This document shows positions 7,722-13,836 of a stretch of 64,000 bases of DNA, one piece after another. Each line of letters starts with the position of its first letter. Positions within the stretch are counted from its first letter, which is position 1. The notes beneath the pieces were generated by a model. That model did not search any database and was not told the DNA's origin. It saw nothing but the letters and a program-made list of their open reading frames with translations. Location: contig DYEC01000004.1 in assembly GCA_020725865.1 (NCBI GenBank), forward strand, positions 186,001 through 250,000, given 5' to 3'. Source of the stretch: Anaerolinea sp. Its GTDB lineage: Bacteria > Chloroflexota > Anaerolineae > Anaerolineales > Anaerolineaceae. The translations under genes were made by a program, and so were the position numbers.

Positions 7722-8543
7722 ATGGATAACATTTTTGACAAATTCAAATTGACTGGACAAACAGCTGTGATTACTGGCGGTGCTGGTTTACTGGGGAAGC
7801 AGTTTTGCCGCACGCTGGCACAGGCAGGTGCGCAGGTGGTTGTGGCAGATTTGAATCTGGCGGCGGCAAAACAATTGGCGGATGCTCTCCAAGAAGAAGG
7901 CTATCCCGCTCTAGGGGTTGGGGTAGATGTTACCAGCCCCGAATCAGTTCAGGAATTGGTCAAAGCAACGCTGCAGAGTTTTCGCCGGCTGGATATTCTG
8001 GTATGCAGTGCGGCGATGGACCCGAAGTTTGACAGCAGTCATGCCGGACAGCACAGGAATACGTTTGAGGATTATCCTTTGGAAGCCTGGAAACAGGCGC
8101 TGGATGTCAACCTGACCGGCATGTTTCTGAGCGCTCAGGCTGCCGTCAAACCGATGCTGGAGCAGGATCACGGGGTGATTATCAATATTTGCTCGACATA
8201 CGGGCTGGTTGGTCCGGATCAGCGGATTTATGAAAAACCCGGTCAGCCCCGGTCATATAAACCCGTATTCTATTCGGTGACAAAGGCAGGAGTGCTGGGC
8301 TTGACGCGCTATCTGGCGACCTATTACGCTGGCAAGAATATCCGCGTCAATGCGCTGACGCCGGGCGGTGTGTATCATGGTCATGATGAGATTTTCACCC
8401 AGAATTACTCGGCGCGCACGGTACTGGGACGTATGGCGAATGAAGATGAAATGAACGGTGCGTTGCTCTTTCTGGCTTCAGAGGCGTCTTCCTACATGAC
8501 CGGGGCAAATCTGGTGGTAGATGGAGGATGGACAGCATGGTAG
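7722..8543 (+). CDS. Short-chain dehydrogenase/reductase, PtmA-like
   Basis: This 273-residue NAD(P)-dependent SDR has the cofactor site TGGAGLLG (residues 19-26), the catalytic serine in NICSTYGLVG, the active-site pair YSVTK (about residues 185-189) and the usual C-terminal VDGGW. The TGGAGLLG variant recalls PtmA-type oxidoreductases found next to CMP-nonulosonic acid synthetases. Here the next gene is such a synthetase, overlapped by a few bases, and neuB follows. It probably oxidises or reduces the acid sugar or its precursor. The exact step is not established. Confidence 0.8.
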   Translation: MDNIFDKFKLTGQTAVITGGAGLLGKQFCRTLAQAGAQVVVADLNLAAAKQLADALQEEGYPALGVGVDVTSPESVQELVKATLQSFRRLDILVCSAAMDPKFDSSHAGQHRNTFEDYPLEAWKQALDVNLTGMFLSAQAAVKPMLEQDHGVIINICSTYGLVGPDQRIYEKPGQPRSYKPVFYSVTKAGVLGLTRYLATYYAGKNIRVNALTPGGVYHGHDEIFTQNYSARTVLGRMANEDEMNGALLFLASEASSYMTGANLVVDGGWTAW

Positions 8544-9772
8544 AACGCCCGGAAGTACTGGCTATTATCCCGGCGCGGGGCGGGTCAAAAGGCATCCCAC
8601 GCAAGAATATCCGTCCTTTTGCTGGCTACCCGCTGATTGCGTATAGTATTGCGGCTGGTTTACAGGCGCAACTGGTTACGCGAGTGGTTGTCTCAACGGA
8701 TGATGAGGAAATCGCCGCGGTGGCGCGCCGCTGGGGTGCAGAGACGCCTTTCTTGCGCCCGGCATCACTGGCGCAGGATGACACGCTGGATTTGCCCGTT
8801 TTTCAACACGCGTTAAACTGGCTAGATGAATACGAAAGTTATCATCCTGATTTGGTGGTGCAATTACGGCCAACCTCACCCTTACGCCCGCCGACACTGG
8901 TGGATGATGCAATCCGCGTTATGCTTGCCAATCCTCACGCTGATTCGGCTCGGGGTGTTGTGCCGGCTGGACAAAACCCGCATAAAATGTGGCGGATTGA
9001 TCCCGAAAGCGGCATTATGCAGCCGTTATTAACTGTGGAGGGCATTCCCGAGCCGTACAATGCCCCGCGCCAGGTATTGCCGCCGGTGTACTGGCAAACC
9101 GGGCATATTGACGTGATCCGCCCGCGGGTGATCCTGCAGCAAAACACAATGAGCGGCAAGGTGATACTACCAATCCTGATTGACAGCCGCTATACGGTTG
9201 ATATTGATACGCCGTATGACTGGCTGCGTTATGAGTGGCTGGTGCATCATGGTGGACTGGAGATTGTGTCACCTGTACGCCGTCGGCCGCTGCCCGAAAA
9301 AGTTGCCATGATGGTGTTTGATTTTGATGGCGTAATGACCGATAATCGTGTCTGGGTGGATCAGGATGGACGGGAGATGGTTGCCGCAAACCGCAGTGAC
9401 AGTCTTGGTTTAAAACGTCTTCGCAGGCTGGGGGTGAGGATGTTGGTGTTGTCTACTGAAACAAACTCGGTTGTTGCCGCGCGCTGCCGAAAACTGGATG
9501 TTCCTGTGTTGCAGGGAATTGAAGATAAGGCAACGGTTTTGACAGCTTATTTGAGTGAGCAGGGTGTTAATCCACAGGAGGTTGTCTATGTTGGCAACGA
9601 TGTCAACGATTTGCCTTGTTTTCCGCTGGTGGGCTGTGCGGCTGTGCCTGCAGATGCCGAGGGCGAAGTTGTGCGTCATGCCGATCTGGTTTTGACGCGG
9701 CGCGGCGGCTATGGAGCAGTGCGCGAAATTTGTGACTTGATATTACAGCGACAGAAAAAATTGGGTAATTGA
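8537..9772 (+). CDS. neuA: CMP-nonulosonic acid synthetase fused to KdsC-like HAD phosphatase
   Basis: This 411-residue fusion has two enzymatic halves. Residues 1-230 are a CMP-sialate-type cytidylyltransferase with the nucleotide loop IIPARGGSKGIPRKN at residues 10-24 and the LRPTSPLR and DIDTPYDW motifs. From about residue 255 comes a HAD phosphatase of the KdsC type, with the nucleophile motif DFDGVMTD and the metal motif GNDVNDL. Such a pair could remove the 9-phosphate from a sugar acid and then activate it with CTP. An in-frame ATG exists at 8528, but GGAGG (8523-8527) is 9 nt before the ATG at 8537, so that start is preferred. It overlaps the SDR by 7 nt and precedes neuB by 13 nt. 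Confidence 0.88.
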   Translation: MVERPEVLAIIPARGGSKGIPRKNIRPFAGYPLIAYSIAAGLQAQLVTRVVVSTDDEEIAAVARRWGAETPFLRPASLAQDDTLDLPVFQHALNWLDEYESYHPDLVVQLRPTSPLRPPTLVDDAIRVMLANPHADSARGVVPAGQNPHKMWRIDPESGIMQPLLTVEGIPEPYNAPRQVLPPVYWQTGHIDVIRPRVILQQNTMSGKVILPILIDSRYTVDIDTPYDWLRYEWLVHHGGLEIVSPVRRRPLPEKVAMMVFDFDGVMTDNRVWVDQDGREMVAANRSDSLGLKRLRRLGVRMLVLSTETNSVVAARCRKLDVPVLQGIEDKATVLTAYLSEQGVNPQEVVYVGNDVNDLPCFPLVGCAAVPADAEGEVVRHADLVLTRRGGYGAVREICDLILQRQKKLGN

Positions 9773-10697: not shown

Positions 10698-10901
10698 ATG
10701 AAAATTTTAGTCAGCGGTTTTACATGGGTTTACCTTGATCCGGGGTCAGGCAGCTTTATCCTGCAAATTTTACTGGCTGCGCTGCTGGGAGGCGCATACG
10801 CTGTCAAGGTGTACTGGAAAAAAATCAAAGGGTTGTTCATCCGTTCGTCTTCGCAGGAGGATAAAGAAAGAATCAATGCGGATCGGGAGCATGACGAGTA
10901 A
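10698..10901 (+). CDS. Small single-helix membrane protein with YLDPGSGS motif
   Basis: This 67-residue protein starts with a short stretch and the motif YLDPGSGS at residues 12-19. One hydrophobic helix (about 20-40) then leads into a basic, charged tail (YWKKIKGLF and onward), which probably faces the cytoplasm. GGAG (10687-10690) is 7 nt before the ATG. From memory, small proteins with this motif recur beside NoeA-like methyltransferases and phosphatase/sulfatase-fold membrane proteins, as in the next two genes here. It could be a small partner or anchor in a glycan-modifying assembly. No function is known to me. Confidence 0.75.
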   Translation: MKILVSGFTWVYLDPGSGSFILQILLAALLGGAYAVKVYWKKIKGLFIRSSSQEDKERINADREHDE

Positions 10902-12270
10902 TCTTCATCAGGCATCTTTTCGTGACCCAAGCGGGTTTGTCTTCTGGCGGGATGGTATGCTGTTTCGTCAGGTGAATCGCATATACCAGAAGGATTACGA
11001 TTGCCTGATACGATCCGGACTATACTCATCTCTGGTGCGGGATGGGCTGATGGTTGGACATGAAGAGACACAGGAACCACCGGAACTTTCTGAGCTGGCT
11101 TATCGGGTTCTAAAGCCGGAAACCGTCAGTTTTATCTCCTATCCTTATGAGTGGTGTTTCAGTCAGCTCAGGGATGCGGCGTTGCTAACGCTGCGTATAC
11201 AGCGAAAAGCGCTTGAGCACGGGATGACCCTGAAAGATGCCAGCGCTTATAACATCCAGTTTTTCGGTTATCAACCAATCCTGATTGATACACTTTCTTT
11301 TGAGGAATATCGTGAGGGGGAACCCTGGGTGGCATACCGTCAGTTTTGCCAGCATTTTCTGGCACCATTGGCGTTGATGGCTTATACCGATGTGCGTTTA
11401 AGCCAGCTTTTGCGGGTATATCTGGATGGGATACCACTTGACCTTGCCAGTCGCCTGCTTCCATGGAAGACTCGTTTGAGTTTGGGTTTGGCGACTCACA
11501 TTCACCTTCACGCTTCAGCCCAAAAGCGTTATGCCGGTGAAAAGATATCCACAGCAGCCCGTGGCAAAATGGGAAAGATGGCTTTATTGGGGTTGATAGA
11601 CAGCCTTGAAGCGGCGATTAGATCGCTTTCCTGGAAACCGCGCGGCACAGAATGGGCTGATTATTATCGGGAAACGAATTACAGTGATCAGGCTTTTGAG
11701 GATAAGAAACAACGGGTGGAGGAGTTTGTTTCTCATGTTCATCCTTCTATGGTTTGGGATTTAGGTGCGAATACCGGGATATTCAGCCGGATTGCCAGTG
11801 GTCAGGGAGCAAAAACGATTGCATTTGACATTGACCCAGCGGCTGTTGAATTGAATTACCGGGAATGTGTCCGCGCAAAAGAAACGAATTTGCTGCCGTT
11901 GGTGCTGGATTTGACTAATCCCAGCCCGGGTTTGGGATGGGCGAACGCGGAACGTCAGGCTCTTGTTGAACGGGGCAAGGCGGACATGGTACTGGCGCTG
12001 GCGCTAGTGCATCATCTGGCGATATCGAACAATGTGCCGTTCCAGAGAATAGCCGATTATTTTTCCCAGATGGGCGAATGGCTAGTGGTTGAATTTGTGC
12101 CAAAAGATGATTCACAGGTACAGCGTTTGCTCGCCAGCCGGAAGGACATCTTTACGGAATATCATAAACAGAGTTTTGAGCGTGCCTTTAATGAAGTGTA
12201 TGAAATCCGTGCTGATCATCCAATCAGCTTCTCCGGGCGAATTTTGTACTTAATGCAACGCAGACAATGA
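10876..12270 (+). CDS. NoeA-like class I SAM-dependent methyltransferase
   Basis: This protein of about 464 residues has a helical N-terminal half (SYPYEWCFSQLRDAALLT, an ALEHGMTLKDAS-type segment and LIDTLSFE) and a C-terminal Rossmann methyltransferase domain with the SAM site VWDLGANTGIFSRIA near residue 300. This two-part layout matches NoeA-type proteins linked to nodulation-factor and surface glycan methylation. The gene overlaps the small membrane protein. ATG 10876 follows AGGAGG (10855-10860) at a long spacing of 15 nt, while ATG 10891 has GGGAG almost touching it, so the start is uncertain by five codons. The substrate is unknown, probably a sugar or lipid-linked sugar. Confidence 0.75.
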   Translation: MRIGSMTSNLHQASFRDPSGFVFWRDGMLFRQVNRIYQKDYDCLIRSGLYSSLVRDGLMVGHEETQEPPELSELAYRVLKPETVSFISYPYEWCFSQLRDAALLTLRIQRKALEHGMTLKDASAYNIQFFGYQPILIDTLSFEEYREGEPWVAYRQFCQHFLAPLALMAYTDVRLSQLLRVYLDGIPLDLASRLLPWKTRLSLGLATHIHLHASAQKRYAGEKISTAARGKMGKMALLGLIDSLEAAIRSLSWKPRGTEWADYYRETNYSDQAFEDKKQRVEEFVSHVHPSMVWDLGANTGIFSRIASGQGAKTIAFDIDPAAVELNYRECVRAKETNLLPLVLDLTNPSPGLGWANAERQALVERGKADMVLALALVHHLAISNNVPFQRIADYFSQMGEWLVVEFVPKDDSQVQRLLASRKDIFTEYHKQSFERAFNEVYEIRADHPISFSGRILYLMQRRQ

Positions 12271-12285
12271 CTTTCGTGGCGAAGT

Positions 12286-13836
12286 ATGGTAATTGAAAAT
12301 AAAAGAGAGTTCATCTTTCATCCTTTTTTGCTTAGCCTGTACCCAGTTGTAGCATTGCTGGCGCATAACATGGGCGAGATGAATCCGGTCTATGCATTGC
12401 GCCCACTGGTTTTTTCGTTGCTATGTGGTGTGTTGGTTTATTTTATGCTGACGCGCTTTTTATCGGTTCAGCGGGCGGCAGTTCTTTTCTTCTGGCTGGG
12501 AGTGCTGTTTTTCTCTTATGGACATGTTTATCAGTTGATTGAACGGGTGACTATTGGTGGTGTAGTCATTGGACAACACCGCGTCCTTGCGCCTTTTTGG
12601 ATCATTTTATTGTGTGCTGGAAGCTGGTTTATACTAAAACGCACCGGTGATTTGGCGACGTTGAACCGACTGCTTAATCTGGTGAGTGTTGTCTTGTTTG
12701 TGGTGCCTCTTTTCCAGGTAACGAAGTTTGAGATTGACCGGGCGCATGCCCAAAGTAACCGCCAAATTGAGACGGCATATCGTGACGATGTGGAATGGTT
12801 GCCGAAGGATGGGCAACTGCAGAGTGAAGCCCTGCCGGATGTTTATTACATCATTCTAGACGCTTATATGCGTGATGATATGTTGCGAAAATTTTATGGT
12901 CTGGATGTATCGCCATTTATTGATCGTCTGAGCGAAATGGGCTTTTATGTAGCGCTGTGCAGCCAGAGCAATTATGCTCATACGTCGCTGTCAATCCCTT
13001 CTGTATTGAACATGAATTATTTGCAGGAAGTTGCGCCCGAATTAATGCGGAACAATATGAGCTGGGCACACATGGGCGATTATGCAAAAAGAAGTCTGGT
13101 ATTGCAATTGTTTAAGCAGTTAGGTTATCGGATTGTGGTGTTTGATACTGGAAACGATCTGGATCGGATGGAAAACGCAGATGTTGTGATCTCGCGCGCC
13201 ACTTCTCCGTGGGTATTGTTGCTGGATTTTCGTCAGGTTGGCGAGTTTGAAATTCTTTTCTTGCGCACTACTGCACTACGACTGGTGGTTGAATTACAGC
13301 CGTATGTGTTACCCGATTGGAATGTGGTGCGGACACCGGAGCAAAATCATTATCAAACGATTTTGTATGGGCTGGATGAATTGGCTAAGGTGCCTGAATT
13401 GACCGGACCAAAGTTTGTTTACTGGCACTTAATCGCGCCCCATCCCCCGTTTGTTTTTGCGGAGGATGGCAGCTACTTGCTCACCGGTGAAGCAGACCCA
13501 GGCTATATCAATGAAATAAAATACCTGAATGTGCGTATCCTTGAGCTGATGCAAACGATTATACGAGAGTCAAGAACGCCGCCGGTGATTATTTTGCAGG
13601 CGGATCATGGGCTGGATACAGAAAACCGAATGGCGATTTTCAGCGCATATTATTTGCCGGGTAATCATGGTAAGTGGCTTTACCCAGAAATTACACCTGT
13701 CAATACCTTTCGAGTGGTATTCAATGAATTGTTTGATGCTGGGTATCCGTTGCTGAAGGATGTGAGTTATTTTTCAGAGCATGATACTCCCTACAATTTT
13801 ACAGAAGTGCGCTATCCATGCGAGACTGTGAGGTAA
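12286..13836 (+). CDS. Membrane-anchored sulfatase/alkaline phosphatase-superfamily protein
   Basis: This 516-residue protein has about four or five N-terminal membrane helices (residues 10-150) followed by an extracytoplasmic alkaline-phosphatase-fold domain. The domain opens with DVYYIILDAYMRDD, where the first metal aspartate lies. It continues with NYAHTSLSIPS, where Thr or Ser would be the nucleophile, and with HLIAPHPPFVF and LQADHGLD, which supply metal ligands. The family includes sulfatases and transferases that move phosphoethanolamine or glycerophosphate onto envelope glycans. It sits between a NoeA-like methyltransferase and a GT-B protein, so modification of the surface polymer is likely. 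Hydrolase or transferase cannot be decided. Confidence 0.75.
   Translation: MVIENKREFIFHPFLLSLYPVVALLAHNMGEMNPVYALRPLVFSLLCGVLVYFMLTRFLSVQRAAVLFFWLGVLFFSYGHVYQLIERVTIGGVVIGQHRVLAPFWIILLCAGSWFILKRTGDLATLNRLLNLVSVVLFVVPLFQVTKFEIDRAHAQSNRQIETAYRDDVEWLPKDGQLQSEALPDVYYIILDAYMRDDMLRKFYGLDVSPFIDRLSEMGFYVALCSQSNYAHTSLSIPSVLNMNYLQEVAPELMRNNMSWAHMGDYAKRSLVLQLFKQLGYRIVVFDTGNDLDRMENADVVISRATSPWVLLLDFRQVGEFEILFLRTTALRLVVELQPYVLPDWNVVRTPEQNHYQTILYGLDELAKVPELTGPKFVYWHLIAPHPPFVFAEDGSYLLTGEADPGYINEIKYLNVRILELMQTIIRESRTPPVIILQADHGLDTENRMAIFSAYYLPGNHGKWLYPEITPVNTFRVVFNELFDAGYPLLKDVSYFSEHDTPYNFTEVRYPCETVR

Follow-up and report, generated by a model that had tools for sequence, protein, structure and literature searches.

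A microprotein with a DPG motif accompanies NoeA-like and NoeB-like proteins in many bacterial groups and points to a candidate envelope-modification module

Introduction

What does a very small membrane protein do beside two much larger proteins? The question is raised by three tandem genes on the + strand of a 64-kb stretch of Anaerolinea sp. contig DYEC01000004.1 (hereafter the window), which encode, in order, a microprotein (here called DPG), a NoeA-like protein and a NoeB-like protein. The noeA and noeB genes are classical nodulation genes. An initial annotation, made from the window sequence, had described a single-helix protein beside a NoeA-like methyltransferase and a membrane protein of sulfatase fold, had pointed to the same trio in unrelated bacteria, and had suggested a conserved, unnamed envelope-modification system with the small protein as anchor or activator of the methyltransferase. 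In this study, we found that the microprotein is paired near-obligately with NoeA and is associated with NoeB in many groups of bacteria, and we tentatively propose that it bridges the two proteins across the inner membrane.

Results

The ORFs (open reading frames) of the window confirm the initial annotation in the position of the module, the length of 67 residues, the overlap of the first two genes and the 15-nt gap between the stop codon of the NoeA-like gene and the ATG of the NoeB-like gene; the overlap measures 11 nt (Table 1). NoeA is encoded in 25 of 201 sampled Chloroflexota genomes, and the microprotein stands beside it in 25/25; the remaining genomes of the sample gave no credible match to the microprotein. 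The profile search for the microprotein returned 25 Chloroflexota genomes, a number that includes the false match in G184 (locus L023), which lies within a transporter-like ORF, and excludes G195, which the search had missed and where the gene was found by reading the DNA. In another apparent exception, G586, the gene was likewise found in the DNA. Among 299 genomes of the phylum of G201, presumably Pseudomonadota since the centre, a metagenome-assembled genome, is labelled Rickettsia typhi, the microprotein occurs with seven of seven full-length NoeA proteins, and one genome (G322) has the microprotein without a NoeA match. Two NoeA matches restricted to the methyltransferase part (G212 and G380; E 2e-6 and 7e-6) were left out of this count, and seven DPG matches at E 0.004-0.01 were treated as chance. 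The pairing is 6/6 among 218 genomes of the phylum of G202 (the centre labelled Bacteroidales), five microproteins being profile matches and the sixth a diverged YNDPGSMS version.

NoeB follows the same distribution closely. Its profile matched 23 of the 201 Chloroflexota genomes, all 23 being NoeA genomes, sometimes with NoeB on another contig (Fisher p 3e-28 for co-occurrence, ignoring kinship; 11 of 133 genera each). This 23/201 is the symmetric count; NoeB of G112 and G168 escaped the genome-wide search and was found with a local profile that was run on the fetched neighbourhoods only and not on NoeA-less genomes. NoeB is adjacent in 6 of 7 NoeA loci of the G201 phylum and in 5 of 6 of the G202 phylum. 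Genome G096 has a split NoeA, a broken microprotein and only a fragment of NoeB, which may reflect joint decay or poor assembly.

A second set consisted of the best 80 of at least 440 related contigs and leans to close relatives (53-63% identity). The microprotein was found in 77/80 loci, and in the three misses (L063, L076 and L134) the contig starts only 0-163 bp ahead of the NoeA frame. It lies upstream of NoeA in 76 of the 77, and a second microprotein profile match at E <= 1e-3 was found in none of the 80 loci. NoeB lies within 5.5 kb in 30 of the 39 loci that are flanked by 3 kb or more in each direction. The contig labels span Omnitrophota, Zixibacteria, Aminicenantes, Armatimonadota, Desulfobacteraceae, Bacteroidota, Isosphaeraceae and others, nearly all of the contigs being metagenome-assembled genomes, whose taxon labels can be wrong. 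Records of other origin show the same layout in Singulisphaera, Sinorhizobium/Ensifer and Rhizobium, and variant layouts in Gemmatirosa and Deltaproteobacteria bacterium Smac51. The initial annotation had staked the module on its recurrence in unrelated bacteria, and the profile and neighbourhood searches bear out this recurrence; NoeB-like genes accompany most modules.

The microprotein gene is closely tied to noeA. Across the relatives, the distance from its stop codon to the conserved SFRD codon of NoeA has a median of 20 nt and is at most 70 nt in 71/76 loci. This overlap or close spacing suggests translational coupling, by which the two proteins would be produced jointly. In 49 aligned sequences the motif has the consensus Y-[LIV]-D-P-G-[ST]-G-S-x3-Q, in which Y12, S19 and Q23 are present in 49/49, D14 and G18 in 47/49 and G16 in 46/49. 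Lys plus Arg residues average 0.08 on the N-terminal side of the helix and 4 on its C-terminal side in the same sequences. Because basic residues are concentrated after the helix, a periplasmic motif and a cytoplasmic basic tail are expected. The single helix described for the window protein holds there, and 46 of 77 relatives add a hydrophobic N-terminal extension; in 40 of those 46, small residues stand at -1/-3 directly before the Tyr, so that the extension looks like a signal peptide. The micro-ORF is under purifying selection: its dN/dS (ratio of nonsynonymous to synonymous substitution rates) has a median of 0.12 among 12 Chloroflexota loci and amounts to about 0.24-0.26 for a pair of rhizobia.

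No family for the microprotein was found in Pfam, NCBIfam, PADLOC or PHROGs; Pfam and NCBIfam gave only scattered single-member matches (E 0.02-0.1). A PDB profile match to cytochrome P450 6g71 (E 0.0078, 21 residues) was taken as chance. In the literature searched we found no account of the microprotein family, its motif, its topology or its near-obligate pairing with NoeA, and the papers that matched the motif were judged unrelated from titles and abstracts. The tblastn search of plasmids with the microprotein misses even the known rhizobial copies, the query being too short and too divergent.

Two microproteins have no adjacent NoeA, and both adjoin a NoeB-like gene. One is the second copy of G101, a genome whose NoeA lies with its own microprotein on another contig. 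The other is that of G322 (L182:7749-8003), a YIDPNAGS protein whose gene is convergent with a sulfatase-like gene. The latter possibly belongs to a wider microprotein family; a search of the 299 genomes for DPNAGS-type proteins beside sulfatases gave credible matches only in G322 and in the already known module genomes.

The NoeA-like protein matches noeA on pSymA of S. meliloti 1021 over 98% of the query with 37.0% identity (tblastn, E 2e-68), which upholds the name it was first given. The designation as a methyltransferase fits the C-terminal half, which gives VIA-align Z-scores of 16-18 to many S-adenosylmethionine (SAM) methyltransferases. The N-terminal half appears kinase-like, so the protein is probably a fusion. 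According to passages of PMC9758233, the N-terminal half of the NoeA homologue Lani_1194 is a protein-kinase-like domain, and about two thousand homologues share the two-domain architecture in 94% of cases; Arg replaces the catalytic Lys and the ion-pair Glu is not identifiable. In the window protein, D116, N121 and D133 would be the equivalents of D166, N171 and D184 of PKA, and R26 would stand for Lys72; S. meliloti NoeA and all of 47 aligned sequences have these four residues. The N-terminal 250 residues or so are thus predicted to be kinase-like, and they may have kinase activity. A phage origin of the module was rejected, as NoeA has no phage match and the microprotein and the module have no PHROGs family. 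A defence origin was also rejected, since the sole PADLOC match, MADS mad2 (E 3.3e-5, residues 276-398 in the methyltransferase half), was taken as general methyltransferase likeness.

The NoeB-like protein matches Pfam Sulfatase (E 2.2e-7), and its predicted model (mean predicted local distance difference test score, pLDDT, 88.3) has five membrane helices and a periplasmic alkaline-phosphatase-fold domain. The top two Foldseek matches were full-length EptA and MCR-1. VIA-align gave EptC a Z-score of 21.5 (rmsd 3.8, 279 aligned), with YejM and sulfatases as near ties. A profile made from the relatives of the window protein matches rhizobial NoeB at E 3e-77. The presumed catalytic set is conserved (D192, T233 and H381 in 42/43, H386 and D440 in 43/43, H441 in 36/43), with D192, H386, D440 and H441 as candidate metal ligands. 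In the column of the presumed nucleophile, which was placed via the Sulfatase match without superposition, Thr is present in 42/43 sequences and Ser in 1/43. T233 is therefore likely to be the nucleophile, as in phosphoethanolamine and phosphoglycerol transferases. The Cys/Ser nucleophile of formylglycine sulfatases is absent if this column equivalence is right, and Thr in its place argues for phosphate chemistry. Thus, the sulfatase fold named in the initial annotation holds, but the name is misleading. NoeB-like genes are sometimes multiplied, with seven matches in G021 and tandem pairs in L088 and L103.

The module of the window is embedded in a same-strand run of genes which, by Pfam and NCBIfam annotation, resembles a surface-glycan locus: an SDR gene, a cytidylyltransferase-KdsC-type phosphatase fusion and NeuB, then a capsule-synthesis-type glycosyltransferase, a family 2 glycosyltransferase and a second cytidylyltransferase. 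The annotation suggests a locus of the nonulosonate/capsule type. The fusion (window 8528-9772) combines a PseF-like cytidylyltransferase (residues 11-238) and a KdsC-type phosphatase (257-412) in one gene directly upstream of NeuB and appears to be a compact nonulosonate activation gene. Seven Chloroflexi-type loci that lack an adjacent NoeB encode, directly 3' of NoeA, a conserved membrane protein of about 335 residues, for which no Pfam family was found. It may be an alternative partner or mere synteny.

Table 1. Features of the module in the window and of the conserved gene 3' of NoeA in other loci
Feature	Position	Strand	Description and basis
Microprotein gene (DPG)	10698..10901	+	ATG 10698, stop ends 10901, 67 aa; periplasm-facing motif, one membrane helix and basic cytoplasmic stretch (predicted)
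Motif codons, residues 12-23	10731..10766	+	YLDPGSGSFILQ; alignment of 49 sequences
Overlap of microprotein and NoeA-like genes, 11 nt	10891..10901	+	ORF coordinates
NoeA-like putative kinase-methyltransferase fusion	10891..12270	+	459 aa, ATG 10891; tblastn, alignment, model mean pLDDT 91.4
Kinase-like N-terminal domain (about residues 1-250, predicted)	10891..11640	+	invariant R26, D116, N121, D133; fold from PMC9758233
Class I SAM methyltransferase domain (about residues 251-459)	11641..12267	+	Pfam Methyltransf_23; motif D290-x-G-x-N-x-G
NoeB-like inner-membrane protein	12286..13836	+	516 aa, ATG 12286; Pfam Sulfatase, model, Foldseek and VIA-align matches
Alkaline-phosphatase-fold domain, residues 181-516	12826..13833	+	D192, T233, H381, H386, D440, H441
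Gene for membrane protein of about 335 aa	L074:2498-3493, L075:8441-9424, L079:8438-9436, L085:8402-9451, L097:4428-5432, L113:8496-9497, L119:8437-9456		directly 3' of NoeA

Discussion

The same three-gene layout is present in the nodL-noeA-noeB operon of S. meliloti (nod box n5). S. meliloti 1021, Ensifer canadensis and Rhizobium sp. T136 each have, after nodL and before noeA, an ORF of 71 codons' product length (71 aa) with the motif YLDPGTGS that overlaps noeA; noeB of S. meliloti begins 6 nt past the noeA stop codon. The ORF is annotated as a hypothetical protein in both annotated records and is not mentioned in the passages on noe genes that we consulted. Strain M162, with a truncated noeA, is reported to fail on 17/27 M. 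truncatula genotypes (PMC4053727), and a modification of the Nod factor by NoeA and NoeB has been hypothesised (PMC9048898). The S. meliloti copy belongs to a host-range operon for nodulation, in which nodL precedes it, whereas the window copy stands in a nonulosonate/capsule-type locus; a host-specific nodulation role is known for rhizobia only and is not expected of the window bacterium. In Legionella, Lani_1193, Lani_1194 and Lani_1195, which the passages available from PMC9758233 treat as possible effectors, include a kinase-methyltransferase fusion and an alkaline-phosphatase-fold neighbour, as in the window. Homologues of Lani_1193 and Lani_1195 occur in 65% and 38% of 816 neighbourhoods according to the same passages. 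By its position, Lani_1193 may correspond to the microprotein. Therefore, the system that the initial annotation called conserved and unnamed is conserved, but it was partly reported already, as noeA/noeB and, in 2022, as the neighbours of Lani_1194 (PMC9758233, in part); that source already contains the association of NoeA and NoeB and a conserved neighbour on each side.

Two further systems resemble single members of the module. WbdD of E. coli O9a, as described in passages of PMC3482155, joins a kinase and a methyltransferase in one chain that acts on a membrane lipid-linked glycan, and those passages mention neither a NoeB partner nor a microprotein. Its order of methyltransferase, kinase and coiled coil is not that of the window protein: the methyltransferase occupies residues 11-212 in WbdD and residues 251-459 here. 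EptA, EptC and MCR and the LtaS-type phosphotransferases share with the NoeB-like protein the membrane helices and the periplasmic alkaline-phosphatase-fold domain, and, if T233 is the nucleophile, Thr in the place where sulfatases carry Cys/Ser. The identity to these enzymes is about 9-14% over aligned parts, and sulfatases tie with them in Z-score.

We tentatively favour the reading that the three genes encode an envelope-modification system which spans the inner membrane and adds phosphate and methyl groups to a membrane-bound substrate, with the microprotein as a bridge between NoeA and NoeB. In the cytoplasm, the kinase-like half of NoeA would use ATP to phosphorylate this substrate, in the window bacterium probably a lipid-linked surface glycan, and the methyltransferase half would then methylate it with SAM. 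NoeB, an EptA/LtaS-like protein with its active site outside the membrane, would transfer or remove a phosphate-containing group. The microprotein, crossing the membrane once, would hold NoeA at the membrane in register with NoeB, and the modification would thus be started in the cytoplasm and completed in the periplasm. An envelope role is plausible, since the genes around the window module suggest a locus of the nonulosonate/capsule type.

Several observations weigh against this proposal. Comparison of distance matrices for 53 loci gave no significant co-evolution of the microprotein with NoeA (Spearman 0.09, p 0.12) or with NoeB (0.11, p 0.14), and that of NoeA with NoeB was weak (0.23, p 0.014). 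The kinase-like domain has no sequence match in Pfam or PDB, RIO1 being matched by 3/25 members at a best E of 0.055, which is not significant; the rows of the fold search covered the methyltransferase half only, so the missing kinase row carries no information. The 18 kb fetched from G334 and the 16 kb fetched from G541 gave no NoeB match. The genes flanking the modules are diverse, with 98 Pfam families in 111 genes (122 from a simple ORF caller minus 11 omitted) and the commonest in 5/111, so no fixed glycan substrate is implied. A fixed glycan locus around the module was rejected, because there is no constant neighbour among these genes.

In the closest rival, the microprotein anchors or activates NoeA alone, much as in the initial annotation. 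NoeA would then be a WbdD-like enzyme that adds a methyl-phosphate cap to a lipid-linked glycan, and NoeB would be an optional companion. The near-total pairing with NoeA, against a NoeB that is adjacent in part of the loci, speaks for it, as do the WbdD methyltransferase and the phosphate methyltransferases MePCE and BCDIN3D among the structural matches (Z 16.6, 17.5 and 16.9). These scores, however, tie with those of dozens of unrelated methyltransferases, and NoeB is no loose companion, since no genome of the Chloroflexota sample has it without NoeA. We regard this explanation as unlikely and prefer the bridge, because the two microproteins without adjacent NoeA adjoin a NoeB-like gene. For the same reason the partner of the microprotein may be NoeB, or both NoeA and NoeB. 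In the extreme case it would be a subunit of a NoeB phosphotransferase, its periplasmic motif completing or positioning the active site, and would stand beside noeA for co-expression only. The invariant residues on the periplasmic side and the same two microproteins are consistent with this, but the gene is almost always directly upstream of noeA (76/77; 71/76 within 70 nt) and stays with it even where NoeB is encoded elsewhere (G064 and G080). The exceptions are only two, and the neighbour in G322 may be an ordinary sulfatase. A pure NoeB subunit thus seems rather improbable.

The chemistry could also differ from that of the proposed phosphorylating and methylating bridge. If the N-terminal half of NoeA were a pseudokinase or a substrate-binding domain, the system would only methylate and NoeB would act on an unrelated bond. 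The lack of a sequence match to known kinases fits this possibility, as do the Arg for the catalytic Lys and the lack of an identifiable ion-pair Glu noted in the passages of PMC9758233; the invariance of R26, D116, N121 and D133 exceeds what would be expected of a dead site, and we consider a pseudokinase improbable. It is comparably doubtful that NoeA phosphorylates and methylates a membrane lipid to a methyl-phosphodiester lipid, a methanol analogue of phosphatidylethanolamine, which the microprotein passes or presents across the membrane and from which the EptA-like NoeB transfers methyl phosphate to a surface glycan or to a secreted signal, for example a Nod factor. If this were true, methyl-phosphate transfer would be a previously unrecognised and very widespread surface modification. 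It is scarcely credible that the small ORF arose by chance or does not code, and that the cluster is a coincidental synteny. Small ORFs are easily over-read, but nothing positive supports a chance reading, the motif is invariant across many phylum labels, the dN/dS of 0.12-0.26 indicates selection, and a second profile match was absent from the 80 loci.

In conclusion, this study adds a third, overlooked gene, located between nodL and noeA, to noeA and noeB. Because the module extends far beyond rhizobia, simple free-living bacteria can serve for the study of its chemistry. A microprotein so tightly tied to an enzyme in many groups is a good model for small proteins that organise membrane enzymes.

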